A stretch of 64,000 nt of DNA from Sycon ciliatum. Lineage: Eukaryota > Porifera > Calcarea > Leucosolenida > Sycettidae. Positions within the stretch are counted from its first letter, which is position 1; each line of letters begins with the position of its first letter. Shown here piece by piece: positions 16,976 through 53,356 of the stretch. The translations under genes were made by a program, and so were the position numbers. Location: positions 23,367,576 through 23,431,575 of the forward strand of contig NC_088655.1 in the NCBI RefSeq assembly GCF_964019385.1. The letters run 5' to 3'. The notes beneath the pieces were generated by a model. It was given only the letters and a program-made list of their open reading frames with translations, did no database searches and had not been told where the DNA came from.

Positions 16976-17260
16976 TTCCGCCCACTGCCACAATCTCAGC
17001 CAATCCTAATACTATCAGGCCAACACAATACAGTAACATAATTTTGACCTGCAGTGCGTCAGGAGGAGGTACTGCTTCAACGTATACATATTCCTGGTCG
17101 GGCCCAGGCATCACGGCGAGTATTGCCACACCTTCACTATCGTTGACGAATCTGAGTTACACAGGAGTGGCTGCAATGTACACATGCACAGTAACCGATG
17201 ACACGATTGTAGACAAGACACAACAAAATGCTACGGCTACCTACACGTTCACTGTACAAG
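16976..17260 (+). CDS. Ig-like domain exon (Ig-4, module A copy 1)
   Basis: The exon encodes 95 residues of an Ig-like domain beginning PPTATISANP. Core residues are C in ILTCSAS, W in YSWSGPG and C in AMYTCTVTDD, ending YTFTVQ. The acceptor is CTGTAG ending at 16,975 and the donor is GTGAGA at 17,261, both phase 1. It is the first exon of a six-domain module (Ig, EGF-Ca, EGF, WSC, Ig, Ig) that is repeated from 35,373. The paralogous exon there has the same length, and the intron bases before the acceptor (GTGACTCTG) are also conserved. Confidence 0.88.
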
Positions 17261-18196
17261 GTGAGAGCATTGTTTTACTTCTTTCATCATGACTATTGTA
17301 GTGACTACACAGTCACCAGCACACTCAGCCCATTACCACTAGCATGTCTGGTTTAGACAAAGAACTATGAAACTAAAGATGAAAGCCAAGAAATCAATAT
17401 AATGATATGCCAGAGACGCAAAATGACTAGGCCATTCGGGGCTCCAGGTAGGCCCAGTTAGGGGCACCCGGTCACGCACTCTGGATGTGTGGGTAACCCC
17501 ATACGCGTAATGTGTATACTCTTCGATGAAGCGCCGTGCTGGCTGGCCACGATTGTGACGAATTGGTCGGTCTGGCTCGGCTGCATTTGGCTGGACATTA
17601 CACATAATTATGGTCATCAGTGTCGACCAGTGGTGCTGACGGTTGCTGGATCAAATGGTGACGATTCCTTTGAAGCGTTGCTCCAGAAGACCCGGTGCAG
17701 GCATAAGGCAGCAATCTCTCCTCCTCTTCTCCTCCATGCGCACTCAAGTACCCATAGCCCTTTTGGTTGTTTGGGATTTTGTGTGTGTGCAATGGCTACT
17801 GAGAGTAGCAACGTGTCAGCTGAGAGCGCATGGCGGAGAAGAGGAGGAGAGATTCTTGCATTCTTTCATGATACGCACATCTTGTTTCAACTATAATAAT
17901 TATTATACTTTTTGAGACGAAAAGTATTATCGCCAGGAAAAAGCCGTCTTATGTTACACTTTGTGGAACATTCACCACAATGCACTGGACGATCGAATTG
18001 ATCTAGGAAAAATAAATGAGGCAGGGTGCAACAATGACAGGGAACACGGCGTTTGATTATACGCATTTGTATCGGTCTTTTCTAGATGTTTGTAGGAACA
18101 TTCACCCTTTGGTTCGCGCTGTACAAGTGTTGATGGCATCCTGCCGATGACTTCAAACAGCCGTAACTCAATCTAATAATAATTATTATTACACTA

Positions 18197-18678
18197 CAGT
18201 CAGACCTCGCTTATCCGATCCTCGTTTATCCGGATCCCTCGCCGTCCGGAAGAAACTCGCTGGTTACCGATGTGCAGCAAATGTAATGCATACAACATAA
18301 CCGGACCTCGCGATCCGCATACCGGTGCATGATTTTGTGTACAAACTGGTTAAAATGTGCACAAAAAGCTTCATCGTATCCGGTTGCATATGGATTGCAG
18401 TAGCTAGAATCAGGAAGTTGTACAGGCAAATGAGGTCCTTGACCTGCTGGGTGCCTGTGGACAGCACTCAGTTGCATGCACTTGTCATTTTTCTCGGTTG
18501 TTTTACATACTGTGCACGCTAGTTGTACTGCATAGGACCCGTCTACATGTATGTACGATGTCACTGCTTTTGACATGCCACATGCATATACAGTATGTGT
18601 GTTCAGTTATCCGGTTCCCTCGCCTATCCGGATATTTTTGTGGAAAACAGATGTGTGCGGTTAAGCGAGGTCTGACTG
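18197..18678. mobile_element. pogo-like MITE
   Basis: CAGTCAGACCTCGCTTATCC at the left pairs with GGTTAAGCGAGGTCTGACTG at the right, with TA on both flanks. Further copies of the TATCCGG phrase lie inside near both ends. It is 482 bp and non-coding. Confidence 0.85.
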
Positions 18679-18912
18679 TATCATGAAAATCAAAGTATGT
18701 GGGTTGTAGCGGAAATCCTTATCTTTCCGTTGATGAAATCCTTTTCACAATAACTCCAAAGGTTGTCGAGATATTACACTCGAAAATTCGCTGACAGCAC
18801 TTTTCTTACTCCGAGCACATTTTCCGGTATGAAACAGGAAATTCCTCTTGTTCCCAAGTACAAGTCATCAAAATATAACTCTATTGTTTTTGGATGGTGA
18901 GCCAATTAAATT

Positions 18913-19033
18913 ATAGTGAAAAAGGAGAAGGACAAAATGTTACGAGTTATGACTAACTGTCCAACAATAAGATCTGGTTACGTTGGTGGGCAGTTAGTCT
19001 TAACTCGTAACATTTTATCCTTCTCCTTTCTCT
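18913..19033. repeat. Palindromic repeat (AACTCGTAACATTTT family)
   Basis: The left arm (GGAGAAGGACAAAATGTTAC, then GAGTTATGACTAACTG) is the inverted complement of the right arm (CAGTTAGTCTTAACTCGTAA ... TCCTTCTCC) around a loop of about 30 bp. A fragment of the same right arm lies near 20,137-20,168 and a related palindrome at 31,957-32,045. Confidence 0.7.
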
Positions 19034-19240: not shown

Positions 19241-20219
19241 ATCATGGTTGCCTTCGCGCATGGGAAACGGATACAAATTGACCCGCTTGACTTTGAATCA
19301 TCGTTCTATGTTGAGTAAATTTTCAGAACCAATGTAATTTGGTGATGTGGCTACAGAACCTGGCTCAGACGCAATAGGGCGGCTCTCAAAAGGAATGAAA
19401 GCAATTCTGTAGCTCATGTTAGGTATATAGTGGCAATATTCGGAGAGAGGAGATCTATAGCTTTCCAAAGAGACCCAAGACGAAGAAAGCTGTAGTTTTC
19501 ATATTATTTTCACTCACCAAAGGCTGAATTTCTTCATTTGGTCTCATCGATGAGCTACAAATCTCCTTTCTCGCAATTATGCAACTAGATGCCCAACAGG
19601 AGCAACAGAATTGCTTTTATTCCATTTGAGAGCTGCCCTATTGCTGCCCTCTTGTGCCTCAATGAGATGCTGTACCCACATTGACAATTTTCTTCGGTTA
19701 AAGAGTGTGGAACTCCTCTTGGGTTGGCCGACGGCGGATTTTTTCGTTGACGTCACCTTTTCTGGAGATCAGGAATCGTACCGTACGAGGCATAACCTGC
19801 GAGTGTATGGCCGCGTGAACTCGGCAGGGTTCACTTAACTTGCAATGCAAGTACAGTAAAATGCTACACAAGGGAGAATATGATAAGAAATAAAATGTTT
19901 TGAAGGCGGCAAACACGAACTCGCGAAGAAAGTCGTCTTCAAGCACATGCTTCATGCGTGCTTTCTTCTGTATGCGGCATAGGTTCAGGAAATGGTGATG
20001 TCAACAAAAAATCTGCCGTGCACCTTACCATTACTGTCCACCAATTTAACCAGATCATATGCAGTGGGGTAGTGCGACAACATGGCACAGAACTGACAAG
20101 CAGACCGTATATGATCTGGTTACAGTGGGGGACTGTTAGTCATAACTCGTAACATTTTAGTCCTCCCTTTTATCCGCGATTATATTGGCTCAACATGTGA
20201 GTTGAATTAATAATAATTA

Positions 20220-20543
20220 CCGTATGTCCGCACCTTTAAAGCCATGGCGGTATCGTTATTGGATTATAAAGCCAGTCTCAGTTATAAAGCCATGGGCTTC
20301 ATAAAATTAATGAAATGACGTTGAAGTACGCTTTGTAAAATGAAGGAGTAAATACTATGCTAACAAACATACAGCCCAGCAGGAAGGGTGAACAAGTGGA
20401 TTTAGATTGAAATTTCTGTGTGGTTTTTGACTTTTATGGCATGCCATAGTGGGTGAGTCATTTTGCTTATAAAATATCTAGGAAAGCGAAAAGCAGCGGT
20501 GTTTCGAATATAAGGTAATGGCTTTAAAGGCGCCGACATACGG
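20220..20543. mobile_element. TA-flanked MITE (CCGTATGTCCG family), copy 1
   Basis: The left end CCGTATGTCCGCACCTTTAA and right end TTTAAAGGCGCCGACATACGG are inverted repeats flanked by TA. It is 324 bp and non-coding. A second copy lies at 34,105-34,408 in opposite orientation. Confidence 0.85.
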
Positions 20544-21152: not shown

Positions 21153-21299
21153 ATGTGAACGAGTGCACGCTATCATCTGCTGACGGGAATGTTCACAATT
21201 GCAATGACAACGCAACATGTACTAACACTGCCGGCGCACACACCTGTGCATGCAACGCAGGCTACACGGGCACTGGCGTTGACGCAGATGGCTGCACAA
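21153..21299 (+). CDS. Calcium-binding EGF-like exon (EGF-Ca-1)
   Basis: The exon encodes 49 residues of a cbEGF domain. The start DVNEC is completed by the last base of the preceding exon (codon G|AT), and the six cysteines occur in NEC, HNC, ATC, HTC, CAC and DGC, with the N-x-N-T-x-G-A-H-T-C region typical of the hydroxylation/calcium-binding consensus. The acceptor is TGTGAAG ending at 21,152, preceded by a poor pyrimidine tract, and the donor is GTAAGT at 21,300. Both introns are phase 1. The paralogue is at 38,139. Confidence 0.87.
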
Positions 21300-21966: not shown

Positions 21967-24816
21967 TGAGCCAGCACAAGCGAAAAGGGACCTTATCCGT
22001 TTTTTGGGCATTTTGAGTTAGCAACGGATTCTTGTAGCCAGACAACGTATGAATCAGGTAAAAAAAACCGAATGAAAATCCATCAACATATAGCAAAGTT
22101 ACGGACGTTTAAATCAACACTGTTTTCACCAAAACATCGCACATATTCACGAATAATCTTTGAAATGCGTAAATTGCAATAATTTGGCCATACAAGCCTT
22201 ACAGAAGCCTTCGAGTCACCAGCAGAAGGGCTGGAGGATACAGTATACACACACTACTAGGCAGTTGGCATAAGTTTCACTGTGATGGAATTTATAGTGC
22301 CAAACGTGACGTCTGATGGGCCATCACGTCCTTCCGTACCACGCAGGCACGCCGCATTTTAGATACAAGAATAATAGAATGTTCTGAGGCATGTAGCTTT
22401 GACACAGCACCAGACTGTAGCAATTATCAGGCTCAAAACGTGTGTTGCACTACGCAAGTTTGTCATTCCTCCGGCACAGGCGGACACAGCTCATCCTTGT
22501 AAGGGTCTGCCACAAACGGGCGGATATCCTTGAACAGGTACTTCTGGCGTTCTTGTGACAGACCTGCTGGGGGCAACACTTGGGGAAGGCCTGCTGCCCT
22601 CACCTGCTCAGGTGTGGTCTTCAACAGCTGCACCTTGGTTTCCATCCCATCCACAAGCTCCATCACTGCCACTGCTCCAGGTTCGTCGGATGAGAACCGG
22701 AAATGATGCTGCTGGCTGATGTTGGGGACTTTTTTGAAGAGCCGGGCGAGGTACGTATCCCACTCAAACCAGGTCACATTGCCAGGGATCCGTCGATGGA
22801 TGTTGGAGGTAGCGCTGGAGTCAACCACATCTGCTAACTGCTGCATGCTGAACACGTCAGAGCGACGGTATTTCCTCTTAACCAAGCCAAACATACCGTC
22901 GACTAGGCATCTGGTATGGCCGGTTATCATAAACGACAATGTTATACTTCTGTGCAAATTCACAATGCAACGCCATGCAAGGTAAGCTATAACAGACTTA
23001 TTTTTGTTTTGTCCTGCGCAATTGTCTGCATGTAGGTAGCAGTCATACTCATCAGCAACAGAAGTGGAAAAATAGTCGTGCAACAAAGAAATTACAGTGT
23101 TCGGATTGTGGCTCTTCTTGCCGTCAGGACCGATGGTTTCTGCCTCGTCAATAATGTAGTTCACCTGTTGGCCAACGCCTTCATTACATACACCAAACAA
23201 GTGGACTTTCCGAGGCACTTTGAAGTAAAGTGGTCCTACCTGTCTGGCCGTATACGGCAAGCTGACGCTCTGAGCAAAGTCAAACGTGTAGTGGGACTTT
23301 GTTAACGGCGGGCGATCAGCAGGAGACATGGCTGAAACTTGCTGAAGCTCAGCGGCAGCATCTGTAGTTCTCTGCCGGTAGCTTTCTCTCTCCCTCTGGG
23401 CCCTATGAACATGGTCAGTCAGCTGAGTGCATGCGGTCGTCTTCTGCTCCTCACTCCCAGCCGCCATCACGTTGCGCCGCAGGTCCTCGCACACAGGGCA
23501 AACATCCATGCGAGCCGTCATGAACTTAATATGCGGTAATGTCTGGTGCCAGATTGAGCGGAACGTCGACAAAGATACAGACTTCTTACCCTCCTTGTGG
23601 CAGCAGTCGCAGAAGTCTCCATGCACGGACTTGTACGTTTGCGACGCTGGAAGGAAGATAGGTGGCGTGTCGTCTCTGCCACGGAGCGGCGCAGGATGTG
23701 GAATTCCAAACACTTCCGCGTGCCCAGTGATGTATTCCACGCAGTACTTCACAACAGCAAACTCCAGGGCATTGTGTGGCCGTTTGCCTGTGTTGCCGTG
23801 CACTAGTGGCACAAGCCCATTCTTCTCCAGGTGGCTTCTGTACCGTTTCAGCCTCTTGCTAGACAGTGCGTACACGTGACGGAACGCACCCACACAAACA
23901 GTCAGTCCTTGGAATTTGTAGGTAAAACGCTCCCTCTTGCGCTTCTCTCCACTCTCAAAAACTGTTTCAGGATGACTCAAAGCTTCAAGAAGGCCCAGGA
24001 CCACCAGCTCACTCTCGTGCGACTCCATTTCTCTCATGTTGAGGATCGACGTCTCGATGTCAGCTGGGTCAAATTGCTGCAAGCAATTTTTTGAACATCC
24101 GCAGTTCTCTTTTTGACGAACAGTGTCATCCTCCTCTGCCGGCGCAACGGTCGCTGCACAAGCTGCTGCGGAGCTAGCCTGCGGAGGTTTGGGCTCTGCC
24201 TTTCCGACATACAGCTCTGCTGCTGCATCGACATCCACTCGCTGCTCAAGAAAGTGTTCACCATCGTCATCGTCATCGCCATCGCCATCATCGTCGCCGT
24301 CGTCAGATTGAACCGAAACATCACTGGCGTCCGACTCGTCTTCCTCACCAAAAACTTCAGCCTCATCCTCTTCCAGGAGAGATTTCAGCGCTTCGTTGAC
24401 AGTGAAACATTTACGATGGCTCATAGTGAAGAGCTACGCCGACCCAAGGACTTAGCAGAAAGCGAAGACGGCAAGACAACTGCGCTGAAACTGTGAAAGC
24501 AACTTTTTGTCTTTCCGCTCGCGCGTGCGATTCTATTCAGCGTAGGTGTCGACGTGTCACGGTCGATCGATTTTGATCGCCGATCGGTGGTACGTGGGTC
24601 GATTTAGCCAGGGTTTTCTTCTACAGGAGCTGTAGGATACTGGCTCTCCAATAGAAAGAATGACTGAGCTCCAAAGAAGTCGCGTATCGCCAAAAAACGA
24701 ACAGTTTCAAGTTCGATCCGAACGTGACAGCTGAGAATCAGCTGATTCACTTCAAGTGCGGTTTTCTCAAAATCACGTGCAGCAGGATAAGGTCCCTTTT
24801 CGCTTGCGCCGGCTCA
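21967..24816 (-). mobile_element. DNA transposon with DUF7869-like gene
   Basis: Inverted repeats of about 33 bp (TGAGCCAGCACAAGCGAAAA, then GGGACCTTATCC, at 21,967-21,999; near-identical in reverse at 24,784-24,816, 31 of 33 matching) bracket a single 653-codon minus-strand gene. No clear target-site duplication is visible. The paralogous intron in module copy 2 (about 40,770-40,870) has no such insertion. The layout supports an autonomous element. Confidence 0.75.
22463..24424 (-). CDS. DUF7869-like putative transposase, 653 aa
   Basis: The uninterrupted 653-residue frame starts MSHRKCFTVNEALKSLL. Residues about 18-57 are very acidic. A CGCSKNC cysteine cluster lies at about 108-114, and further Cys pairs are in FCDCCHKEG (about 271-279) and VCPVCEDL (about 308-315). 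The C-terminal half has an RNase H-like pattern: YTFDFAQ (D about 382), LHADNCAGQNKN (D about 467) and TGHTRCLVDGMFGLVKR (D about 509). The DNCAGQNKN and GHT-x-D-x-FG motifs recur in multicopy animal proteins labelled DUF7869/integrase-like. Transposase function is inferred from these motifs and the inverted repeats. Confidence 0.75.
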   Translation of the reverse strand: MSHRKCFTVNEALKSLLEEDEAEVFGEEDESDASDVSVQSDDGDDDGDGDDDDDGEHFLEQRVDVDAAAELYVGKAEPKPPQASSAAACAATVAPAEEDDTVRQKENCGCSKNCLQQFDPADIETSILNMREMESHESELVVLGLLEALSHPETVFESGEKRKRERFTYKFQGLTVCVGAFRHVYALSSKRLKRYRSHLEKNGLVPLVHGNTGKRPHNALEFAVVKYCVEYITGHAEVFGIPHPAPLRGRDDTPPIFLPASQTYKSVHGDFCDCCHKEGKKSVSLSTFRSIWHQTLPHIKFMTARMDVCPVCEDLRRNVMAAGSEEQKTTACTQLTDHVHRAQRERESYRQRTTDAAAELQQVSAMSPADRPPLTKSHYTFDFAQSVSLPYTARQVGPLYFKVPRKVHLFGVCNEGVGQQVNYIIDEAETIGPDGKKSHNPNTVISLLHDYFSTSVADEYDCYLHADNCAGQNKNKSVIAYLAWRCIVNLHRSITLSFMITGHTRCLVDGMFGLVKRKYRRSDVFSMQQLADVVDSSATSNIHRRIPGNVTWFEWDTYLARLFKKVPNISQQHHFRFSSDEPGAVAVMELVDGMETKVQLLKTTPEQVRAAGLPQVLPPAGLSQERQKYLFKDIRPFVADPYKDELCPPVPEE

Positions 24817-25053: not shown

Positions 25054-25152
25054 CTGTTTGCTTCGAAAACGGTTGTCTGAATTCGGGTAGTTGTGCTGCC
25101 CCGGATGTATGCTTCTGTCACAACCGCTACTCTGGGAAAACCTGCGAGAACT
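25054..25152 (+). CDS. EGF-like exon (EGF-1)
   Basis: The 99-bp exon encodes 33 residues forming one EGF-like domain: VCFENGCLNSGSC, then VCFCHNRYSGKTCEN, with six cysteines in EGF spacing. It lacks the D-x-N/D-E motif, so it is not a calcium-binding type. The acceptor is CTTGCCTTAG ending at 25,053 and the donor is GTAAGT at 25,153, with phase 1 on both sides. The paralogue at 41,012 differs at only a few residues (D for E, V for A, I for T). Confidence 0.87.
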
Positions 25153-25249: not shown

Positions 25250-25370
<121 letters not shown>

Positions 25371-25521
25371 AGATAGATAGGAGGGGAGGGATGGGGAATT
25401 GGAGGGGAGGGGGGGGGGGGAGAGGGGGAGTGTGAGAGCCAGGGGGAAGGAGAGGAAGAGGTAATAGAAAGGTGTGACAGGGTTTATATTTTGTTTTGTT
25501 TGATGTGCTCCATATGCTTAG

Positions 25522-25688
25522 TGTACCCCGCCGTAACCCAGGAGAGATGTGCATCAGGTCCTGCTACCGCACTAACAGCTGAAATGAACTTTCCTCTAGT
25601 CGGTTCACCTACTGTAGACCCTGGTTATTGTGCTTACCTGTGCTACGGGGAAAATATGACATATTCCGCGATCAACTACGACACACAG
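25522..25688 (+). CDS. WSC domain exon, first half (WSC-4a)
   Basis: The exon encodes the N-terminal half of a WSC domain, starting YPAVTQERC and running through [11 protein letters not shown] to YDTQ. The acceptor is ATGCTTAG ending at 25,521 (phase 1) and the donor is GTATGA at 25,689 (phase 0). The phase-0 intron inside the domain is shared with WSC-5 but absent from WSC-1 to WSC-3. Downstream intron sequence (TATGCCTGCACCATTTTGAT) is conserved in the paralogous intron and is tandemly doubled here. Confidence 0.85.
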
Positions 25689-28154
25689 GTATGATCTATG
25701 CCTGCACCATTTTGATGACCTATGCCTGCACCATTTTGATGACCATGCACTGCACGACATGCATGTGAGTGTGTGTGGGATTGTGTGATTGAGGTTAGAG
25801 CTATACAATAGCTGGATTTAACCTTTCGCCGGCTTGTCGATCTCACGAACCTGTTAACGAGGTGTTGGCGCAAGCTCCGTCATCACCATCAAGCGAATCG
25901 TCGCCAGGTTGAAACGAAGTTTCGAGTTCTGGGAGAAGTGACGCGCCAGCATCCACCAAAATACAGATATTAGAGTGGGTAGAAATCTCAACAGGAGAAC
26001 TACATGCGGCGCTCAAGAAGTCAAAGGGAACGTTCGAACATCAATTCACTCGGCACAGTCTTCCAAGATACTAGTGAACGGGTGAACTCACTTGATCGGG
26101 AAAAGAAAATATTTTGCGGAAGGACTTTTTCGACAGTACGCATCACTGGCACTATGGTATGGTATTTTTATTTGAATTCACCAATCGAACAGGCATGTCT
26201 GCCTGCTTGCCGGGATGGCCAGAGCCAACCACGGCTCCTACTAATTGATGAATAAAAAGAAAACTTCTTTCTATACTACAGTAGGTTTGAAACGTCATAC
26301 AGTTCGGTTCTTGATCGAAACCTTATGAATCGCCCTGTATAGTACTTGGCTCAACTGTATTTTGTTATACATTTGGAACTCATACTCAATAGATAACCTA
26401 TGGATACAGGCCAACCCTCCCGGGTTCCCCAGGAAAATCCCGGGAAATCAACTATACTCCCTGGATCCTGTAGATTTCAAGCAAACTTCCGGAAATGTCA
26501 CATGTTTGTCTGATATAGAATGTTCCTGAAAACTCCGTGGACTCGCCTCGAATGTTCCGGTTTTTTCAAAAATATGTACGGTGCGCACTTGCACTGCGAA
26601 CTGTGCACGGCACTTTGTAGACCTGACCAGCCTAGCCTGCAAAATCTGCACTGACGGGCGCGCTAGGCAGGCGCCACCTGATCGAACTGCAGTGCAGGGT
26701 CGAACGCCGTTGTACGCAGATTTGCAGAGTCTATGCCGTCGAACTTCTTCTTTTACGGGAAGAGCTCTTTTCCACTTGTTTTCGTGCCATCCAGGGATTT
26801 TGCATGTATTGTCAAAGGATTGAGATTTTGGTGGTTGGTCAGTATGCTTATGGATAATGGATAACCACAAATCTACTTGCACGATGTTCAGTATGCTCAG
26901 TTATTACTCCCCTGGGAATCGAGTTTCGAATTATCAGTGTTACAAACCACAAGTCCTCAAGTGTGTGTTTGGGTAATATGTGTGGGTATGTGTGTGTGTG
27001 GGGGCGTAGGTGTGGGTATGTGTGTATATATGTATGTACACGTACGTACGTACGTATGTATGTGTGCGCGCGCGCGCGCGTGGCTTCGATACCTCACTCT
27101 TCTCTTCTCTTCCTGTCGGTGTCTCCCGCTTCTGGGCCGGCATGGCCCATGCTTCATGCATGCTTGTTCATGTTGTTGTGATATGTAAGCACATGTATGT
27201 CTCTACTGTGTTCTGCCGCTACTCGGGCTTTGGCCATGACCACGATTATTCTCCTCATTTTCTACTTTATCCATTCTTTTCTCTTTTTGCTAAGAGCTTT
27301 CTTCTCGCCAGTGACCACGATATATCTTTTCCTTTTTCTTCTTTTTCTCCTTTCTTTCTTTTTTCTTTCTTTCTTTCTTTCTTTTTCTTTTGCTGAGAGC
27401 TTTCTTTTCCCATATTTTCTTTTCACCTGTGTGTCCTTTCCAAGTTTTCCCATGCCTGTGTTACTTGGATCACATTCGCTTCCTTGTCATTGGACATGTT
27501 CAGTCCGTTCGGTTTGCGAATTCAAATAAACACAACCAACCAACCGCTGGAACGAGTTGTTGTACGACGGTGAGAAGCCCTTCGGTGGGGAGAATGTTAC
27601 AAGCACAAGTCCTCAAGTGTGAAAGGCCTTCTCGCTTATGACATTGTATTCGTTGCAATGTTGTATCTCGACTCTGCCGTACTGCTGATGTTTACTGCAT
27701 GGCATACGCTATATGCGCTATGTGTGATTTACTGTATACGCTGTCATGTTATGTTATATATGTGTATGCTTTTCTGATATACGCTGCCCTTTGCATGCTA
27801 TTAATAGCGGGTGGTCTTCGACTTTAGTTACTATATTCGATCAAGTGAAATGTACCGTTAAAGAGTCAACAGTTGTCCTCGTGCCGTGTGGTCGTTCGTT
27901 CCTGGCACTGCAGAGGGTTCACAACAATCAGTAGTATACTGTACCCGCCTGTCTGTTTGCTTGTCAGTCAATATCTATGTGTCTGTGTGAGCGTGGGTGT
28001 TGATTTCTGCCTGCCTGACTCTTTGACTGTGTGCCACCCCCCCCCCCCCCCCCACCCGATAGACTACCTGCCCCTTTTTTTCTGATTGAGGAATCTAAAG
28101 ACTAATTTGATGTGCTCATCTGTTTTCACTTTTGCTTGTGTTCTTGCATCATAG
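25689..28154 (+). other. Intron within WSC-4
   Basis: This 2.5-kb phase-0 intron begins with a short tandem duplication (about 25,692-25,743). It contains GT/GC-rich sequence (26,957-27,085), pyrimidine-rich sequence (about 27,240-27,420), a 17-C run (28,027-28,043) and a repeat of about 25 bp (near 26,939 and 27,594; CACAAGTCCTCAAGTGTG). No gene is recognised; 25,800-26,880 has only shadow ORFs. Confidence 0.6.
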
Positions 28155-28305
28155 GCAAACTGCTATTGTGGCAACACCCTCGACTTCGCAGGAGCGGCCA
28201 CAACTGATACTATGTGCGGGAACAAATGCGAAGGATATGAAACGCGGACAGAAAACTATTATTGTGGTGCAGTGATGAAATATGCTGTGTACTCATTGAA
28301 TCCAC
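28155..28305 (+). CDS. WSC domain exon, second half (WSC-4b)
   Basis: The exon encodes the C-terminal half of the WSC domain: ANCYCGNTLDF, MCGNKCEGYET, NYYCGAVMKYAVYSLNP. The acceptor is GCATCATAG ending at 28,154 (phase 0) and the donor is GTAAGA at 28,306 (phase 1). Together 4a and 4b give 106 residues with the same cysteine layout as WSC-1. The paralogous half at 43,361 is one codon shorter. Confidence 0.85.
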
Positions 28306-30040: not shown

Positions 30041-30340
30041 TACCTCCCCTTCAAGTTATGGTGACTGCGACTAGTCCGACCGCTAATTCCATGGGAAGAT
30101 TTGTTGACGGCAGTATTGTTACATTGACTTGCAATACAGCCGCCCCTGATGCGGCATTTACCTATGCCTGGGAGCGGAATTCGGTCTCAGTCCCAGGAAC
30201 GGCAAACACATATGTGCTTACCATCAGCAACATCAATGATGGTATCTACACATGCAACGTAACCAACCCTACTGTTGTATCTGCTGGTAATTACACTCTC
30301 CTCAATAGCAGATCTGGACAAGTCAGCCTTACTCACCAAA
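30041..30340 (+). CDS. Ig-like domain exon (Ig-5, module B copy 1)
   Basis: The exon encodes 100 residues of an Ig-like domain: PPLQVMVTATSP at the start, C in VTLTCNTA, W in YAWERNS, C in DGIYTCNVTN, ending VSLTHQ. The acceptor is TTTCCCTCAG ending at 30,040 and the donor is GTAAGT at 30,341, both phase 1. The paralogue at 48,850 is nearly identical, and the match extends more than 40 bases into both flanking introns, marking a relatively recent duplication. Confidence 0.88.
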
Positions 30341-33225: not shown

Positions 33226-33525
33226 CTCCTCCTACAGTCTCCATTACGATTTCCACTAGTACATATGTGACTGGCCAGACAGCAACCTTTACCTGCATAG
33301 CAGCGGGTGATACACCAGTTACGTTCAATTGGTATCAAGGAACCACTATGGTCAATTTTAACAGCCGTATCACGACCATGGCGGGTGGTAATGAAAGCAA
33401 GCTGACGATCAGCAACTTGGTTAAAGGCGATGCTGGAAACTATTCCTGCACAGCAACAAACAACTTGATAGTTGTTAGCAGCTTGCAAACTTCTAAAGCA
33501 CAACATACTGCAATTGTTGTCCAAG
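33226..33525 (+). CDS. Ig-like domain exon (Ig-6, module C copy 1)
   Basis: The exon encodes 100 residues of an I-set-like domain: PPTVSITIST, C in ATFTCIAAG, W in FNWYQG, KLTISNLVKGDAGNYSC with the second cysteine, ending AIVVQ. The D-A-G-N-Y-x-C tyrosine corner is canonical. The acceptor is CACTTGCAG ending at 33,225 and the donor is GTGAGT at 33,526, both phase 1. It ends module copy 1. The related Ig-9 (53,057) is more diverged than the B or EGF pairs. Confidence 0.9.
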
Positions 33526-33549
33526 GTGAGTGAAACCTGCAATTCATTC

Positions 33550-35372: not shown

Positions 35373-35657
35373 TTCCGCCCACTGCCACAATCTCAGCCGC
35401 TCCTAGTACTATAACGCCAGCACAATATAGTGACATAACTTTGACTTGCAATGTGGCAGGAGACATGCCTCCAACTTTGACATATTCCTGGTCGAGCGCA
35501 CTAACACTCCCAGCCGTTACAAATACCCCAACTCTATCATTGATGAATTTGGCCTACACAGGAGCGGATGCAGCATACACCTGTACAGTAACCAATGGTC
35601 TGATTGTAGACGCGACAAAACGAGTCGCTACAGCTACCTACACGATCAGGGTACAAG
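35373..35657 (+). CDS. Ig-like domain exon (Ig-7, module A copy 2)
   Basis: The exon encodes 95 residues: PPTATISAAP, C in ITLTCNVAG, W in YSWSSAL, C in AAYTCTVTNG, ending YTIRVQ. It is the same length as Ig-4 and clearly its paralogue, with the acceptor context GTGACTCTGCAG matching GTGACTCTGTAG. The donor is GTGAGA at 35,658. Phase 1 on both sides. It opens the second six-domain module. Confidence 0.88.
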
Positions 35658-38138: not shown

Positions 38139-38285
38139 ATGTGAACGAGTGCATGCTACCATCTACTGACCCGAATGTTCACACTTGCAATGACAACGCA
38201 ACATGTACTAACACTAACGGCGCACACACCTGTGCATGCAACGCAGGCTACACGGGCACTGGCGTCGGCGCAACTGGCTGCACAA
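38139..38285 (+). CDS. Calcium-binding EGF-like exon (EGF-Ca-2)
   Basis: The exon encodes 49 residues: DVNEC (D completed across the junction), HTC, ATC, HTC, CAC and TGC supply six cysteines. It is almost identical to EGF-Ca-1, differing mainly in the loop after DVNEC and near the C-terminus. The acceptor is TGTGAAG ending at 38,138 and the donor is GTAAGT at 38,286, both phase 1. The first 40-50 intron bases on both sides are also conserved with copy 1. Confidence 0.88.
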
Positions 38286-41011: not shown

Positions 41012-41110
41012 CTGTTTGCTTCGATAACGGTTGTCTAAATTCGGGTAGTTGTGTTGCCCCGGATGTATGCTTCTGTCACAACCGCTACTCCGGAAAAATC
41101 TGCGAGAACT
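41012..41110 (+). CDS. EGF-like exon (EGF-2)
   Basis: The 99-bp exon encodes 33 residues, VCFDNGCLNSGSC then VCFCHNRYSGKICEN, with six cysteines in EGF spacing. It differs from EGF-1 at about three residues. The acceptor is CTGCCTTAG ending at 41,011 and the donor is GTAAGT at 41,111. Both sides are phase 1. About 50 bases of downstream intron (GCTGTAACATGACTTGTTAT) are conserved with copy 1. Confidence 0.88.
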
Positions 41111-41728
<618 letters not shown>

Positions 41729-41895
41729 TGTACCCCGCTGTAACCAGTGAGGGATGTGCATCAGGTGCTAGTTCCGCGCTAACAGCTGAAATGAATTTTC
41801 CTCTAGTTGGTTCACCTACTGTAGACCCTGGTTATTGTGCTTACCTGTGCTACGGGAAAAATATGATATATTCCGCAATCAACAACGACGCAAAG
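41729..41895 (+). CDS. WSC domain exon, first half (WSC-5a)
   Basis: The exon encodes YPAVTSEGC through [11 protein letters not shown] to NNDAK, the N-terminal half of a WSC domain and paralogue of WSC-4a. The acceptor is ATTTCAAG ending at 41,728 (phase 1) and the donor is GTATGG at 41,896 (phase 0). The acceptor changes from the CTTAG of copy 1 to CAAG, yet the upstream sequence (GTGCTTCATAT) is still alignable. Confidence 0.85.
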
Positions 41896-43360: not shown

Positions 43361-43508
43361 ACAAACTGCTATTGTGGCAGCACCATGGGCTTCGCTGGGA
43401 TGGTAACACCTACTACGTGCGGAGGAAAATGCAACGGATATGGAACACGGACCGAAGAATACTATTGTGGTACTGCTACCGATTATGCGGTATACTCATT
43501 GAATCCAC
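43361..43508 (+). CDS. WSC domain exon, second half (WSC-5b)
   Basis: The exon encodes TNCYCGSTMGF, TCGGKCNGYGT and YYCGTATDYAVYSLNP. The acceptor is GCATTATAG ending at 43,360 (phase 0) and the donor is GTAAGA at 43,509 (phase 1). It is one codon shorter than WSC-4b, with several substitutions, but keeps all cysteines. Confidence 0.85.
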
Positions 43509-45399
43509 GTAAGAGCACTTGTGCGAACTCAATTGAAAATGTTGCCGTGTTTAAATCCTTTTCGCTTTGCTGAAATATCTAAAACCGCTGGGCAGTTGAG
43601 CGTCCGGGCATAGGCTGCTTCTGAAACTGGCTCCACAGACACAGGTTGAGGGTAAACGAGCCGACCGCTAGCCATAGCGCAATGCCAAACCATCACGGAA
43701 CTCGCTTTTGGACAGCACAAATCCACGACGAGATAGAGGACGACATGTAAGCCAGCTGTAGGTGCCAGGTTCCCTTGCCAACTGGATAGTGTGCTGTATC
43801 ACAATTCCCTGCGTCCAAGCCCTCGTCTCCTTTAGACAATTTCTGCAATATTGGGCTTCATGGAAAGCTCGTCGCAAGAGAAACACTCTAGGCCAACATT
43901 TGCTACCAAGAGAGTCAAAACACCATAAAAGTCTGTAAATAGGTACAATCAACGTCGCTAATAAAGACTGTGGATATATCGGCAATTCGTGAACAACGAA
44001 AGAATTTTCATGCCCAGAGCAAAGTCCCATCTAACTGGATAAGTTTGACTTCGGATATAACGACTATCTGAGTAACGACATTTCGCGAATAGCGACATGA
44101 TGTTAAGGAGGCTCCCACCTAAAGAAGTAAAAATAAAAGGTCCATGGACACCCTGTTTTTTATGCATAGAATGGTGGAGTGATGTCTCTTCTTCAATTTG
44201 GTATAGTTTTTAGGTAGGGTCACCAGGCATATAAGAGGTATTCTGGTGTATTTAGTGAGTGTACAATTTCTTGATTTTCGGTAAAAAATGGTAAAAAAAG
44301 TTGGTTTTTGACCCAAAGAAGCCTCCTGGAAGGAGGATACTAAGCATTTTCTTCATCATATGTTTAAGAACCACATTTGGAGGTATCTTGGCTACACAAG
44401 ATAGACTGCGTCTTGGTTTTGCCCTTGGCGAGCCACTTTTTCGAAATTACGGGTACCGAAATTTCCATCGGGTGCTGAATTGTGAAATGGTTCAGCCTGC
44501 AACATTTTGTCCATGGACATATTGATTTTTGTGGCTTTCTGTGATCCTTGAGCCCCAAGGAAACCGATAATGGACAGTTTTGATGGTGTCACCAGGCACT
44601 TTAGGCCCCTACCAAACAATATAGGTATCAAAATATGGTATTTTTAGGCCAATTCTGAAAATAGCATTTTTAGAAAATCTGACCATTCTTGCCTTCTTGA
44701 CTAAATATCACTACCAATGACATGGTAGTATGGTAATATTATTTTAGAAGAAGTTATTTTCATGCTGCAACCTCCTTTGGACATACCAGACATTCTGTGC
44801 TTTGAAAGGTACATGTATAATTACATGTACATGTATGTCTTGTAGCCTTCAGTCCTAGCACATTGATATACGAGTAGTGTACATGTACATGTAAGGCAGC
44901 GAGGTTTCATAACAACCTCGACCATGAAACTGGCACATGAATAATGTGAAAGCAGGCATTCAAAATAAGGCACACTAAACACTCACACGCGTGCGCACGC
45001 ACATAAACACCCACCCACATGCACGCACTCTCATGCACGCATCATTGTAACACTACTAGTCCATAGTAGGACTTAGTGTAAATAAAAGCCTGAAGACCAG
45101 CCACTGCACTGGGCGTGCATTTGCTGGTTGTCACTTGCGTTGATAGCAGCAGACTCCAGAAAAACATCGCATGAAGGGCAATATGCATCTACACACGCTG
45201 GCGTGCACATATACGATATACATGTAATGTACTGTCATGCTCTCTCGGCAATTCTTTTTGTGTCTCAAATACGGTTCACAAATGCGCATTCACATGCAAC
45301 TCCTGTACTGTAAAGCCATTACCACACTGTCCTTGCGGACATCAGAGAGGCATACAGAACCAGCACCGTGAGCCCCCCCCCCCCCCTTCCACACCTAGC

Positions 45400-45825
45400 T
45401 TTGCACACGCGCGCACACATGCACGTGCATACACACATACATGTACACAGACATTTGCATGCACATGCACACAGTGCACTCGTGGGGACATGTGCATAAC
45501 CCAGATCAACATTGCGTGCGAACCCACACATGCGGGCACGAGCACACGCGCACACACACACACACGTGCGTACACACACACTCGTACACCTGGCCAACGC
45601 TGAAGCGAGGATAGCGAACAAACTACGTTAGACATAGCAACTTGTGCTCGGATTACACCTTTCAACAGCTTGCACACACACACGCGCATGTGCGCGCGTA
45701 CACACACACACTCGTGCGCGCGCGCGCGCGCGAGTACACACACACATGCGTGCGTACACACACACACATGCGCGCGTACACACACACACATGCGCGCGTA
45801 CACACACACACACAAACGCATGTAC
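45400..45825. repeat. Alternating CA/CG purine-pyrimidine region
   Basis: Two blocks (45,403-45,590 and 45,672-45,825) of CA, TG and CG dinucleotides, including an uninterrupted run of CG around 45,716-45,732, are separated by about 80 bp. Long ORFs of alternating Cys/Val or His/Thr on both strands are artefacts of this composition. Confidence 0.9.
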
Positions 45826-46829
45826 TTGCGCATAGAAAAGGATTCAAAATAATCAACCACAGGCATTTACCCAATACACACCTGAGTGTGCACATCTTAG
45901 TTGTGGCATCCCCATTTTTACAAAAGCAGGATTTAGAAGTTCGTCCCTGGTTCAGAACACAAGCTTCTGGCCAGCGTTTTCCTTACACCATCAGTGCAGT
46001 ACAGTGGTTGACACGAACCTCATTCCTACAGGGACAGTAGCCCAAGTAAGTTCAGCAGCTCTGAGATGCGTCGTCCACTGAGCTCAGGATACTCTAGGAT
46101 CCAGAGAAACAGTTTCAAACGGCACTCGTGCGACTGGAGCTGCAAGTGGGTCCACTTACCAGCGAGTGGGCAGCCACTTCACGCTCCACAGGTAGTCCAT
46201 GCTAAATTCCAGTGCCAGTACTAGTATCACTACGTTCGACATCGATGTCTTCACTGACTTCAGCCTGCTTTTCTCACCCTTCTTCGTCAGTAATTTATTA
46301 TTTTTATTATTTTGTTCTTCGTGGCCACATCGTACCGCTTCAACAAAGCTTTCACAAAAAATCAAGCAGCGTAGGAACTGCCTTTGTTTAGCATTAGCCA
46401 TGGCCAGTGATTCTTTCCAGCGTAGAAACAGCCACGGCTACAGAAACACTGCAACGAGTAGAACTATATCCTGGAACAACTGCGAGCACAGAGAAATCAA
46501 AAAACTTCTTTCTGAACAACAGCTTGTTTCCGCATGGAACACAACATTTTTCGAATCTCGCGGCAAAAAACAGATTTCGGAGGTGCCCTTTTTACACTGC
46601 GCTGCGCAACTGTTCGGAGCCTCCTTAAGTGCCCCGAGGTCAAAATTGACTGCTCGTGTAACGACTTTCTGGGCTTGTGACAGCTATTTCAAGTACCTGC
46701 CATGCAGAACTACCAGAACCCATGGCGATGGATAAAGGCAGACATGCATGATTGTACAGTAAACATCATACACAAAAGTGGTGTACTCGATATCAGCACG
46801 AAAAGGTGCACGTGTCAGCAATACAATAA

Positions 46830-47075
46830 AGCAGCGCAGCAGCATACACCACGGGTCAGCAGCATGTACGACGCAGAGACACAAGCGCAGCAGCATGGTA
46901 CGACAAAGAGACACAAGCGCAGCAGCATGTACGACAAAGAGACACAAGCGCAGCAGCAGGTACGACAAAGAGACACAAGCGCAGCAGCATGTACGACAAA
47001 GAGACACAAACGCAGCAGCATGTACGACAAAGAGACACAAGCGCAGCAGCATGTACAACAAAGATCTACACGCGC
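46830..47075 (-). repeat. 31-bp minisatellite, locus 1
   Basis: Units of exactly 31 bp (AGCAGCATGTACGACAAAGA, then GACACAAGCGC) repeat about seven times; unit starts at 46,921, 46,952, 46,983, 47,014 and 47,045 are clear. The opposite strand matches the loci at 49.4 and 57.6 kb. Confidence 0.9.
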
Positions 47076-48849
47076 AGCCGTACATGTCCCAGTAGATGGC
47101 CCCAAAAGGCATAATTACTTAAATTCATTTCCCTTACATGTTGACTTTATAGTTCCTTTCAATTGCAACATGACAATAAAGTACACATTGACATAGAGCA
47201 TGAAAAGGGCTTCATTTTGATATGCATGTCATACTATACAAAATATGGGCTCGCATACATTCAAATGGGACTTCGGGTATAAGGACACTTCGCGAATAAG
47301 GACACTTTTCTGATGCCCCACCGAGTGTCGTTATTCGCAAAGTTGGCTGTACGTACTTACTTTCGACTTTAGTGGTCACGCCCGTACCAGCTTCGGGCAC
47401 GAGCTACAACAGCTTTCAAACCTGACTTGTTTACAGTAGAGAATTCATATTTCATGTAGATTTACATGCTAAGCATTGCTTGTGCAAACCGTACCGGTAC
47501 TAGTAATTATTTCGGGAAGTACGTTTATCGGGCTCGACTTGATTTCAGACAAAAAGAATGAAGGGGTATTTATTTCGGGTGTCCAATAAGAACTCAGATG
47601 GTGAGCCATGGAAACATTTTGTAACATGGAAAAAAGAGGAACGTGGTATGCCTCAGTACTCCTTGTCGGTTTTGTGCTAGATTCTGCACGTCTGACTATT
47701 CGAAATCTGGTTTAGTTGGTGATCTCGATCGCATAACTTGTGCCCACACTTTTTTCCATGTTACAATTATCTATTTCGGGCAGGTACTTATGTACGGATT
47801 TTTACGGTATTTCGCAAAAGTCATCAGTCTCCACCCGAGCTTCCAGCGACTGCACACATCTTTCTTAGCCTGTTCAGCATCACGCACTACCTCTGATATC
47901 CATTTCTCCTTCGCCATCCGCACAGCCCTTGCAACTGCACGCTGTGGCTGGCAAAAGTCTTACTCCTAATCTAGGCGATTCACACGACAGACGCACTTGA
48001 ACGTTTTACGGCGAGCGATCCACGCGAAACAGGACAGTGTGGGCTCACACACCTACACTCGACAACAGGCACGTTGTCATTTTTGGATGGTTTACCCTCC
48101 AGTTGCCATGGGTAGTTCAATTTTTTTTACGAAGAAACTAGAAATTTGCGTGTGTAGATTTTCTCGACTCGAGATTAGTTTCTCTCCACGTGTAGTTTGG
48201 ACAAAACAACAGCAAAGAATGATGTGTCTGTCTCCTAATTTTTCTTGGTGCTTTCACAGGGTGTACAACCACCTAGTGGATGCAGAGCCCAGGCATTGCC
48301 AAAGAGTGGACCCGCACTTCAAATAAGCGCAAAGAAAATGACGATATCCTTTTTACTCCACATCACATTCTTGTCCGCCGACTTGAGCATCTCTGGAAAT
48401 GAGAAACTTCTTTTCCGCATGATTGAGAACGCACTTTTTGCCATCTTCTATTTTTCGGCAATGCAACCATTGCAAAACAAGGCAAGGCATGTCGGAAACA
48501 CTGCACAATACGGAGACAGTAGCAGAGTGAAAAGAGCTGTGCATAGAATCGAGTCCTGTTTCAATCAAAAACCAGGTCTCAATTTGTTCATCTGCACGCC
48601 ACAATTATCGTGCCTTAGGCCCCTCAGCTTGCTTGTACCTTTTAGACACAGTTGTCCACAATCTCATTTACAGGTGACATACCATAGCAACAGGTCCTGT
48701 ACATGTGGATTTGTCTGTCATGTCAATTACGTACTAGGTTATTTAAACCTTTCTTTCTTTAATTGATTTATCCTTCTTCAATTCATTTATCCGTCTTCAA
48801 TTCATTTATCTTGTTCTCTGCTCGCTGTCCGTTGTCTTATTTCCCTCAG

Positions 48850-49149
48850 TACCTCCCCTTCAAGTTATGGTGACTGCGACTAGTCCGACTGCTAATTCCT
48901 TGGGAACATTTGTTGACGGCAGTAGTGTTACATTGACTTGCAATACAGACGCCACTGATGCGGCATTTACCTATGCCTGGCAACGGAATTCAGTCTCAGT
49001 CACAGGATCGGCAAACACATATGTGTTTACCATCGGCAACACGAATGATGGCACCTATACATGCACGGTCACCAATCCTAATGTTGTATCCGCTGGTAAT
49101 TACACTCTCCTCAATAGCAGGTCGGGACAAGTTACTGTAACTCACCAAA
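48850..49149 (+). CDS. Ig-like domain exon (Ig-8, module B copy 2)
   Basis: The exon encodes 100 residues: PPLQVMVTATSP, C in VTLTCNTD, W in YAWQRNS, C in DGTYTCTVTN, ending VTVTHQ. It is nearly identical to Ig-5 and shares its flanking intron sequence on both sides. The acceptor is TTTCCCTCAG ending at 48,849 and the donor is GTAAGT at 49,150, both phase 1. Inverted copies of the 31-bp minisatellite lie on either side of it. Confidence 0.9.
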
Positions 49150-49363
49150 GTAAGTAAATCAAATGCCACATAGGGCAATTCGTTTAGATGTGTACCCAGT
49201 TCTGTGTTAGCAGCTTTGGTGGTGCTGTAAGTAATCACTTAAAAATGGGAACACATGCCTTTGGTGATCAGTTACGTCTTCCTCAGAATATATTTTGAGC
49301 TTATGCTGACCTTTCATACAAAATTCCAGTCAACTGCCCAATCATGCAGGTGGTTTATATTGG

Positions 49364-49550
49364 GTGTTGTACATGTGGCTGCGCTTGTTTATCTTCGTTG
49401 TACATGTGGTTGCCCGTGTAGCTCTTTGTTGTACATGTGGCTGCTTTTGTGTCTCTTTGTTGTACATGATGCTGAGTCGTGGTACATGCTGCTGCGCTGT
49501 TTTTGACCCCTGCGTACATGCGGCTGCACCGTCTTCTGTCCCCGTTGTGT
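49364..49550 (+). repeat. 31-bp minisatellite, locus 2
   Basis: Imperfect units of TGTACATGTGGCTGC...TCTTTGT with a spacing near 31 bp match the reverse complement of locus 1. The array ends with CGGCTGCACCGTCTTCTGTC, a phrase also found at the end of locus 3. Confidence 0.8.
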
Positions 49551-50099
49551 ATACACTTGCTCGTCTTGTCGCCGTTGTACGCCTTCACTATAATATAATA
49601 TTCTGTTGTCTTGTCTCAGTGTCAGTCGTCCGTCGTTCGTTGCCAGAGTTAGTTCTTCATTATGAGTTCTCCAGTCGCCTACTGAAGCAAAGTAGAAGAA
49701 AAAGCTCTCTAACAATTAGTACTGGTCCTTTGTTGTGTGGCGTGGCGAGGAGCGCAGAGGCAGTTCTTTCACGGTTCTCAAACCCGTGACGACATTGGGT
49801 GTATAAACCCCATATATTCCCAGTATAAACCTCATATATACCACCACAATATAAACTTCTTTTCAGAGATTGGAGGAAACTATCTTCAAAGTGCTATCAA
49901 AGTGCTATCAAATCACCGAGAAACAACAGAAGCAGAAAGTCTCGAAAGTCGAATCGTCGTCCCGTAGGCGCTCAATAGCCGCGTGCCCAGATTTGAATGA
50001 TGGATTTCCCCATCCTCCATTCTGGGCATGCAGTGATTTGGAAACACGTTCAAAATGGCGAAAAGGCTTGTGGCAGTTTGTGAAAAAATGTTGAAGTTG

Positions 50100-50359: not shown

Positions 50360-51720
50360 TTAACAACGAGAATTTCAACTTGATTTAGGCGCTCCGCAAC
50401 TGGTAAAAGTACATTCTGACATCTGGAAATCCTCGTAGGGCCTTTCTGATTTTAGTACAGCTCCGCTAAAGCGAAACACTCAACGATGAGAAACTAGTGA
50501 CGCGACGGCAACAGAGGTAGACGAACTGAAATGCCCTTGATCAACTCGAGTCGGGGCGCAAGAGTGCTACCGCTAGTGACATCTGAATTTTTCCAGTCTC
50601 CCACCCTGGACTCCGTGCTGAACACCAAAAGCCCTAAACCCTTTTGATGGGACAAGAGCTGAACATCGATTGATGAGCTACGAACTCTCCGTGTTCGATG
50701 CTGGAATCATGGCTCACTGATGCGCATGCTGCCAGTTTCCCACAGAGCTCAAAGAGGTGCAGCAGAACAATGATGGACTACCTCTAATTCGTGTACAAGA
50801 TGAAGTGCGTGGTGTTGAATGTCGTGTCTGTTTCATATTCCCTGTGGTATGGACAGACTGGGACTCCAGGTGTAGTTGTAGCCACCCTCCCTCCTGTTGT
50901 GCACTTCTGTCGATTTTCAGCCGACTTGGGATGGAGTTCAAACAGTTTCCATTGGTCTGCAATGATGAGGATCAAGGCAATCCATCTCCTACGCCAGAGG
51001 TTGCCCGATAGTTGATTTACAACAAAAACTGGATGGCTGATTTATTAAACTGCCTTTTGTACCAAATAGTATTCCTATGTGGAAAACGCTGTGATAAATT
51101 GTCGTATTTCTCCTGATACTGGGCAATTTCTCATGCGCCATGCAACCATGAATCACAGGGGGAAGTCCCAGTTTGGTGCATCTGCTCACTGTTTACGCCA
51201 CGCAGGCAATATGTAAAAAAGCACACCCGTATTCATGTTTCACTCTTTGGCGCCCAGTGATTCTTCATCACGCTATAATCAAACGACACGTTGGGTAGAA
51301 TGGCCGCATAGTATATCTTACTAATTGCGATTTTACACTTTATGTATATTGGCAAGAGTACATCACGCCCAAGAGTGTGCAAATCCAGCCATGGGATCTG
51401 CGGCGGCAGAACTTCACATCCCATGCCGAACCTGTACACATTAGTTGCCCCCTGAGCATGATAGATCTTTAGGTACAACTCTCTTGTGGTGACTTTGCAC
51501 TGTTTGCCAGCGTACCCTTTTGAACCATGTCACATGATCTGAAGTTCTGCCATCGCAGCACTGTATAGAGGTTGTGCTGACAGTTGCACACTTTTGGGGG
51601 TTATGTACTCTTGATATTGGGAATCAAAAACAAGCATCAGCCTGATAACAATGGATCCACTGAGAATAAAATTTAAAGTAGGGTGTGGAAAAGCAGAGAT
51701 AAGAAAATGAAAGAAAGTAA

Positions 51721-51979
51721 GGGGCCGTCCGCAAATATCGAACTTTTTTCACCAAACGAATTATTTTAGTTTAGACCCAACCCCTCCCTCCCTCCCCCTC
51801 AGAACGTAAAAATTGTTGACATACACATGCATATACAACAAAACCCGCAAGTGTGTAACTGCTCCTATGGCCATGTACATGTATCGAACTTTTCTGAAAC
51901 GAAATTGGTCAACCCCCTCCCACCCCATAACGAAATTATTTCGTTTCGTGAAAAAAGTTCGATAATTGTGGACGACCCC
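51721..51979. mobile_element. PIF/Harbinger-like MITE
   Basis: GGGGCCGTCCGCAAATATCG, then AACTTTTTTCAC at the left pairs with GTGAAAAAAGTTCGATAATT, then GTGGACGACCCC at the right. TAA flanks both sides (51,718-51,720; 51,980-51,982), a 3-bp TWA duplication as in Harbinger elements. It is 259 bp and non-coding. Confidence 0.8.
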
Positions 51980-53056
51980 TAAGTGAAGCGATAAATAGAA
52001 GAATTAATGCTGACATAATACCATGAATCAATCACAAGAGGATCATAGGATCACATCGATTGTTTTATTTATCGCGTTGATAAAACTCTTTTCTCCGAAA
52101 TGCCTATTTGCAAGAAAGTGAAGGTTGGTTTTTAACGAATAGATATCAATCCAGTGTGCTATTTAAGCCCTACGTAGCTGATAATGCGCACTGCAAGGAT
52201 TGGAATTTTAAATCTGAATCCTGTATCAACACTTTGCTTCTGTTGTTAATTTGTTCCACTTAATGGCTCCAGCACGTGTTGGGCGCTTAGCAGAACGAGC
52301 AGTACCAGCAGGTGGGACAACAAGCAAGTTTCTTTGGCCTCAACTAGTGCGGGTTGATGGCATGACAGCAACAAAGAAAAAAGTCGGAAATGGCTTGTTC
52401 TCTAAGCTTTCTAATGAGCCATCGTTCTTGGCAATCGAAACAATTATTGAAGCACTTTAGGGTCCTGGTCAGCCGTGTCGAGACACGACCCACACTATAC
52501 GCTTTTGGAGAACAAACCACAGTGAACATATATGCCGCATTTACTGCTAGTTGATGTGAGACACAAAGTAGTCGTTGAAGTGCAATTTTGTGGTATATTA
52601 GCATTTGAATTCTTAGCGCAGTCTGAGCGCATTCGGGTCCTCGATGTCGCAATGTTTTTTGCAGATGGAGCTGCCTCCATGCTGGCCTGTCCCGAGTTGT
52701 CTCCAGCAGCCGGTGAAGGTCCCGCATGGTCTCCGGCTGTCCATTTCCCCTTGACTTCAAGTCCGGTGACATGGTATACTGGAGCGTTATTCAGGGCCTT
52801 CCTCACCATTTGCCGCTCTCATCTAATATTCTGCTATCGCCCACTGTGCGGGTACCTCAGTTGGCAATCTCAGCCCATGGCCAAAGACACACCATCGTAT
52901 CGAAGAAAAGACAATGAAAATACGACATTTTGAACATCGATGTATATACGCTGCCTCACTTGTTTGCCGTGACAGTAAAAAGAGGGGATGCTGAGGACCT
53001 GGCCACAAACTTACTCCATTCAAGTTACTATTTGATGTTTTTTTTCTCGTCTGCAG

Positions 53057-53356
53057 CCCCTCCAGTGGCAACTATCATGGCTAACGCATCAACTCAGGTT
53101 ATAGGTGAAAAAGCAACCTTCACTTGTTCCGCAACGGGTGACATGCCGTACGTGTTCCGGTGGTATAAAGAAGCTGCGGAAATAACCGGAGATACACGTA
53201 TTACTATATCTTCAAGTACTACTACTAGCATACTCACCATCACGAACTTGGTAAAAGGTGATGGTGCAACGTATGGCTGCGATGTAACAAACATGGGTAT
53301 TGTTGACGCGACGCAGAGAACTTCCTCCATTTCAACATCCATCTTCATGGTGCAAG
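53057..53356 (+). CDS. Ig-like domain exon (Ig-9, module C copy 2)
   Basis: The exon encodes 100 residues: PPVATIMANA, C in ATFTCSATG, W in FRWYKEA, ILTITNLVKGDGATYGCDVTN with the second cysteine, ending IFMVQ. It is most similar to Ig-6 but clearly diverged, and its intron flanks are less conserved than those of Ig-8. The acceptor is GTCTGCAG ending at 53,056 and the donor is GTGAGT at 53,357, both phase 1. It closes module copy 2. Confidence 0.9.

Follow-up and report, generated by a model that had tools for sequence, protein, structure and literature searches.

A 64,000-nt stretch of the genome of the calcareous sponge Sycon ciliatum (assembly GCF_964019385.1, contig NC_088655.1, positions 23,367,576 to 23,431,575; hereafter the window, whose positions are used as coordinates throughout) carries a run of seven exons for extracellular domains that recurs in tandem, in what is probably the gene of a giant LAR-type receptor protein tyrosine phosphatase (PTP) with added WSC and EGF domains. 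The data support a tandem duplication of a multi-domain block together with its introns. As a whole, we favour a reading in which five domains of a LAR-type receptor were duplicated between older Ig exons and were afterwards subject to patchy gene conversion, and we put its probability at roughly 0.58. The contig with the window is 28.4 Mb long and belongs to an assembly of 538 Mb in 313 contigs.

Exon borders were placed at AG/GT sites. All exons are on the plus strand and follow one another in this order (nucleotide identities are between the two copies):

166..492, plus strand: WSC-1 exon, phase 1-1, eight cysteines
2616..2933, plus strand: Ig-1 exon (Pfam Ig_3, three stretches in the WSC-1 to Ig-3 protein)
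4342..4653, plus strand: WSC-2 exon, the sole WSC of the gene listed by a whole-genome WSC search
7582..7899, plus strand: Ig-2 exon (Ig_3 in the same protein)
9227..9574, plus strand: WSC-3 exon, eight cysteines, with an insert rich in Ala/Thr/Pro
10094..10393, plus strand: Ig-3 exon (Ig_3 in the same protein)
16976..17260, plus strand: copy 1 Ig-4 exon, 285 bp, 74.6% identical to Ig-7
21153..21299, plus strand: copy 1 EGF-Ca exon, 147 bp, 91.7% identical to copy 2
25054..25152, plus strand: copy 1 EGF exon, 99 bp, 93.8% identical to copy 2
25522..25688, plus strand: copy 1 WSC-4a half-exon, 167 bp, 89.1% identical to WSC-5a
28155..28305, plus strand: copy 1 WSC-4b half-exon, 151 bp, 74.1% identical to copy 2, which is one codon shorter
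30041..30340, plus strand: copy 1 Ig-5 exon, 300 bp, 89.6% identical to Ig-8
33226..33525, plus strand: Ig-6 exon, 300 bp, partner of Ig-9 by position, 52.5% identical, silent sites saturated
35373..35657, plus strand: copy 2 Ig-7 exon, 285 bp
38139..38285, plus strand: copy 2 EGF-Ca exon, 147 bp
41012..41110, plus strand: copy 2 EGF exon, 99 bp
41729..41895, plus strand: copy 2 WSC-5a half-exon, 167 bp
43361..43508, plus strand: copy 2 WSC-5b half-exon, 148 bp
48850..49149, plus strand: copy 2 Ig-8 exon, 300 bp
53057..53356, plus strand: Ig-9 exon, 300 bp
57425..57586, plus strand: first half-exon of Ig-10
58988..59116, plus strand: second half-exon of Ig-10
61119..61412, plus strand: Ig-11 exon

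The Ig and EGF folds are confirmed by Pfam in both copies of the module. WSC domains have eight conserved cysteines, and each of the five WSC domains here has eight. WSC-2 (28.2 bits) and the WSC-1 to Ig-3 protein (38.1 bits) exceed the Pfam cut-off for WSC (PF01822, 27.8 bits); WSC-4 reaches 23.1 bits and WSC-5 is not listed at E 0.01. In the 20 modelled exons from WSC-1 to Ig-9 the domain-border introns are all of phase 1, so blocks can double without loss of frame; the internal intron of WSC-4 and WSC-5 is of phase 0. Symmetrical phase 1-1 modules of extracellular proteins are known to undergo intragenic duplication (Patthy's exon-shuffling modules). The unit described here differs in that it comprises five domains of three folds, and its parts are of strongly differing apparent age.

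The original prediction, made from the letters of the DNA, held that the seven exons between 16976 and 53356 are present twice. Indeed, they recur in identical order, phase and length, save for the one codon in WSC-b. Self-BLAST (E 1e-3) gave collinear matches for six of the seven exon pairs (WSC-a within a match spanning 25283-25828); Ig-6/9 gave no DNA-level match at this threshold. Among the matches listed in a whole-genome protein search, the module occupies one locus: the best 14 of the 85 listed are the window's own exons, and none of the others exceeds 40.5 bits (88 of 1261 first-look candidates were scored).

The copies are not equally alike throughout. As predicted, the EGF and Ig-5/8 pairs (93.8 and 89.6% nucleotide identity) are closer than Ig-4/7 and Ig-6/9 (74.6 and 52.5%), and the difference extends to silent sites. 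Synonymous divergence (dS), by NG86 and by a pairwise maximum-likelihood codon model respectively, is 0.40 and 0.32 for Ig-4/7, 0.03 and 0.02 for EGF-Ca, 0.17 and 0.17 for EGF, 0.15 and 0.13 for WSC-a, 0.58 and 0.58 for WSC-b, 0.22 and 0.19 for Ig-5/8, and 2.08 and 3.1 for Ig-6/9. A single recent tandem duplication would be expected to leave uniform silent divergence, but equal dS over the seven pairs is rejected (likelihood-ratio test (LRT) 83.9, 6 degrees of freedom, p=6e-16; NG86 chi2 77.5), also when Ig-6/9 is left out (LRT 23.4, 5 degrees of freedom, p=3e-4; NG86 p=0.0013). The four inner pairs (EGF-Ca, EGF, WSC-a and Ig-5/8) marginally fit one dS of ∼ 0.13 (p=0.053; p=0.165 by counts), and adding Ig-4/7 to them leads to rejection (p=0.004). 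Over 867 four-fold and intron-edge sites, Ig-6/9 excluded, mismatches are significantly clustered (window variance, p=0.0002) and the longest run of matches is 58 (p=0.005; 5000 permutations), a pattern that points to gene conversion.

Unequal constraint offers another route to unequal identity. If there had been a single duplication at one time, with EGF and Ig-5/8 strongly constrained, Ig-4/7 and Ig-6/9 under relaxed or diversifying selection, and a varying mutation rate, then the ratio of amino-acid-changing to silent divergence (omega) of 1.02 at Ig-4/7, where amino-acid divergence is ∼ 3 times that of the four inner pairs, would be natural, and intron blocks in a younger duplication of the same gene (see below) are likewise uneven. 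Ig-6/9, however, combines an omega of 0.21 with saturated dS, which largely refutes such a history for this pair; a common dS is rejected, and the non-coding edges of the exons show similar contrasts. We consider it improbable. The prediction had named conversion or selection at the outer domains as causes. The uneven divergence stands, but selection at the protein level is insufficient by itself because the contrast recurs at synonymous sites and intron edges; the pattern requires patchy conversion or at least two events. As the sole cause, protein selection is rejected for Ig-6/9 and unlikely for WSC-b, since the contrast extends to their synonymous or intron-edge sites. At Ig-4/7, whose amino acids change fast and whose four-fold sites are unclear, selection is a possible contributor. 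The EGF-Ca pair has 11 amino-acid-changing differences and one silent difference (LRT for omega 3.79), with 15 mismatches at 95 intron-edge sites.

The sixth pair does not support a duplication of six domains in one event, which the prediction had implied; the claim is supported for five domains but not for Ig-6/9. The dS of this pair (3.1; interval from 1.6 up to 6, the upper limit of the grid) is saturated, whereas Ig-5/8, only ∼ 3 kb away, has a dS of 0.19 (0.13-0.30), and a shared value is rejected (p=5e-11). Ig-9 is 43% identical in amino acids to Ig-6, 41% to Ig-7 and 40% to Ig-4, and in a tree of 14 Ig domains the grouping of Ig-6 with Ig-9 has a support of only 80/80. Ig-6/9 belongs to the repeat by position, length and weak family resemblance only. 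We also considered Ig-9 as a hybrid of Ig-6 and Ig-7, and set this idea aside: 39 of the 70 informative sites favour Ig-6 and 31 favour Ig-4/7, with no sharp switch between the first half (23:12) and the second (16:19).

Ig-6 and Ig-9 do have the same position and length, the same gap pattern relative to Ig-4/7 and a common NLVKGD motif. These features would suit an old duplication of all six domains, after which the other exon pairs were homogenized by separate conversions centred on exons, and so would the restriction of intron homology to the edges of the more-alike exons. Such a history requires several independent conversions, and Ig-9 is scarcely nearer to Ig-6 than to Ig-4/7. We regard it as unlikely.

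Intron edges align over ∼ 20 to 230 bp around EGF-Ca, EGF, the WSC halves and Ig-5/8, as had been noted, and around six of the seven exon pairs in all; around Ig-6/9 they are at the level of random intron pairs. The 12 edges are by themselves uneven in divergence (p=0.011). The 3′ edge of EGF has no mismatch in 57 sites, against 20 in 139 at its 5′ edge (p=0.0011), and the Ig-5/8 edges have six in 82, against 37 in 176 at WSC-b (p=0.0066), both contrasts having been chosen post hoc. The interiors of the introns scarcely align: at E 1e-3 the six introns have aligned blocks that amount to 8% of the shorter introns, or ∼ 10% if a low-complexity block of 233 bp is added. Several contain insertions:

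20215..20533: short repeat, found genome-wide, in the Ig-4/EGF-Ca intron of copy 1, with an own branch of 0.060; the matching intron of copy 2 lacks it
22469..24433, minus strand: 655-aa open frame with Pfam DUF7869, probably that of a transposon, in the EGF-Ca/EGF intron of copy 1; nothing comparable lies in that of copy 2
44103..46632: repeat of 2.5 kb in the WSC-b/Ig-8 intron of copy 2, with copies elsewhere in the genome that are up to 98% identical
50360..51118: repeat between Ig-8 and Ig-9, with an own branch of 0.124, compared with 0.006-0.017 in eight other copies (of 39 others listed)

If the repeat at 50360-51118 was inserted after the duplication, its branch would make the duplication at least 0.25 old, older than the inner exons, as a six-domain history would have it. 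However, this insertion is on the 3′ side of Ig-8, perhaps beyond the duplicated unit, and some of the changes on its branch may have preceded insertion; the repeat at 20215-20533, which is inside the unit, has a branch of just 0.060. Dating by insertions was dropped: the longer branch suggests an older duplication, and the shorter one does not settle the matter. The insertions also bear on whether the repeat might be an assembly artefact, whether through two haplotypes set in tandem or through a misjoined repeat, a concern raised with the prediction. This is very unlikely, because the insertions differ between the copies, one of them being the 2.5 kb element of a genome-wide family, and because the module is found at one locus only in the 313 contigs (among the matches listed). 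Moreover, the exons diverge by 6-48% and the introns scarcely align.

We extended the view to 100 kb downstream and 40 kb upstream of the window, including stretches that read N. The same strand carries, downstream, more Ig exons (Ig_3/I-set matched on those sampled), then four FN3 domains (131.7-139.6 kb), the Ig-then-FN3 order of LAR-type receptors, and the exons of two tyrosine phosphatase domains (147.5-152.4 kb). On typed, joined pieces both fn3 (four stretches) and Y_phosphatase exceed their Pfam cut-offs, and the best-ranked solved structures for the joined phosphatase pieces are PTPRS, LAR and PTPRF at ∼ 1e-107. The first phosphatase domain (D1) has WPD and, across an intron, HC(X5)R; the second (D2) has WPE. 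Full-text searches of open-licence papers listed no title on a WSC-bearing receptor tyrosine phosphatase.

These data are consistent with a model in which the window encodes the N-terminal part of the ectodomain of a putative giant LAR-type receptor phosphatase. A unit of five domains and six exons (Ig, EGF-Ca, EGF, WSC in two exons, Ig) would have been doubled in tandem with its introns by recombination within phase-1 introns, which would have kept the reading frame. Ig-6 and Ig-9 would be older sister Ig exons that flank the unit; the simplest route is perhaps a tandem duplication into or past Ig-6, after which one Ig exon was lost or fused. Later insertions may have replaced much of the intron sequence, separately in each copy, while short tracts around EGF-Ca, EGF/WSC-a and Ig-5/8 stayed, or became, more alike than WSC-b and Ig-4/7. 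Gene conversion is the most likely cause of these tracts. In the protein, a putative ligand-binding block would be doubled on the N-terminal side of the FN3 stalk and of the phosphatase pair.

Several points weigh against this model. The case for conversion comes from two copies in one genome, and four-fold sites do not clearly separate Ig-4/7 (8 of 36 changed) from the four inner pairs (15 of 110). The unity of the gene is suggested by strand, phase and domain order; its start, the membrane span and part of D1 are unseen because two stretches beyond the ends of the window read N. Caution also comes from a second, younger tandem duplication in this gene, of split Ig exons (86.5-98.1 versus 99.5-109.1 kb). 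Its amino-acid-site divergence (dN) is 0.065, its dS 0.029 and its intron divergence 0.112, with dS below that of the introns (p=2e-4); synonymous sites are thus no clean clock there, and the unevenness of the module may in part be variation in rate. The introns of the younger duplication, too, are uneven (10 blocks, p=0.002; the count excludes blocks within a minisatellite or off the main spacing, and the test excludes one block of fewer than 51 sites), although its exon dS is not significantly so (four pairs, p=0.12). It aligns over just 47% of the shorter introns, so low alignability alone is no proof of age; we had taken it as proof of conversion in the module and dropped this argument, since introns of this gene decay rapidly.

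The pooled omega of the younger duplication is 2.9 (four exon pairs, 206 codons; p=0.023, uncorrected). One might speculate that the gene is a fast-growing recognition receptor whose ectodomain duplicates in blocks and whose new Ig copies are positively selected, comparable to allorecognition or immune receptors, with homogenization of the older block confined to its inner domains. We hold this to be doubtful: the introns diverge more (0.112) than the amino-acid sites (0.065), so slow synonymous sites would explain the omega equally well.

LAR/PTPRF, PTPRS and PTPRD (type R2A) have the same order of Ig, FN3 and two phosphatase domains as the sponge gene. To our knowledge, LAR proteins have three Ig domains and neither WSC nor EGF. 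The predicted sponge receptor differs by having more Ig domains and, towards the N terminus, five WSC and four EGF-type domains, over a span of ∼ 150 kb. Ig and EGF are common adhesion folds. WSC has been described as a putative carbohydrate-binding domain and occurs in an amphioxus LRR receptor, in the excerpted text of one source (PMC8211107), and in kremen 2 according to part of another (PMC3927609). The duplicated block may lengthen and double a putative ligand-binding region of the phosphatase.

Partial conversion among Ig-coding paralogs has been reported for CEACAM genes, which in the excerpted account have partly escaped concerted evolution and are converted in some parts only: the leader exon and introns, between genes, with the Ig exons spared (PMC7042247). 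The likeness lies in Ig paralogs and partial, here putative, conversion; as far as that account goes, the sponge gene differs in that its more-alike tracts are exons and lie inside one gene. Dscam is likewise an adhesion gene with tandem duplicated Ig exons, which are mutually exclusive alternatives and, in the portion of the study at hand, gave no sign of conversion (PMC3236188). On that portion, the present case differs in that the block has five domains, and we saw no sign of splicing that chooses between the copies.

With two block duplications of different age in one gene, the divergence of exons, silent sites and introns can be compared directly. The gene is thus well suited to studying the growth of modular receptors and the possible role of conversion in keeping certain domains similar. 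The addition of WSC and EGF domains to a LAR-type phosphatase would, if confirmed, widen the known range of ectodomains in this class.

A small WSC-Ig-Ig gene lies elsewhere in the genome (C2:5086815-5091481, within C2:5083001-5093000). Its protein matches WSC (32.5 bits) and Ig_3 (51.1 and 38.8 bits) in Pfam and by eye has a signal peptide, one membrane span and a short tail. WSC is followed by two Ig domains, as in WSC-4, Ig-5 and Ig-6; unlike in the large gene, no FN3 or phosphatase domain was noticed among its open frames of at least 85 aa. The WSC-Ig pair has therefore been reused in this genome.

Other repeats were seen in the introns. The Ig-3/Ig-4 intron has a 519-aa transposase frame (12668-14224; PF13843, DDE_Tnp_1_7), which we take to be of the piggyBac type, and after it a pair of direct repeats ∼ 404 bp apart (14185-15017). 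The WSC-5a/5b intron carries a repeat (42399-43146) that is 97% identical to 93399-94144 and 85% identical to 87088-87668 in the same gene region. A 31-bp minisatellite family occupies three introns in both orientations (46857-47078, 49365-49579 and 57598-57775), and a (CTG)45 array (57266-57400) lies 24 bp 5′ of the Ig-10 exon.

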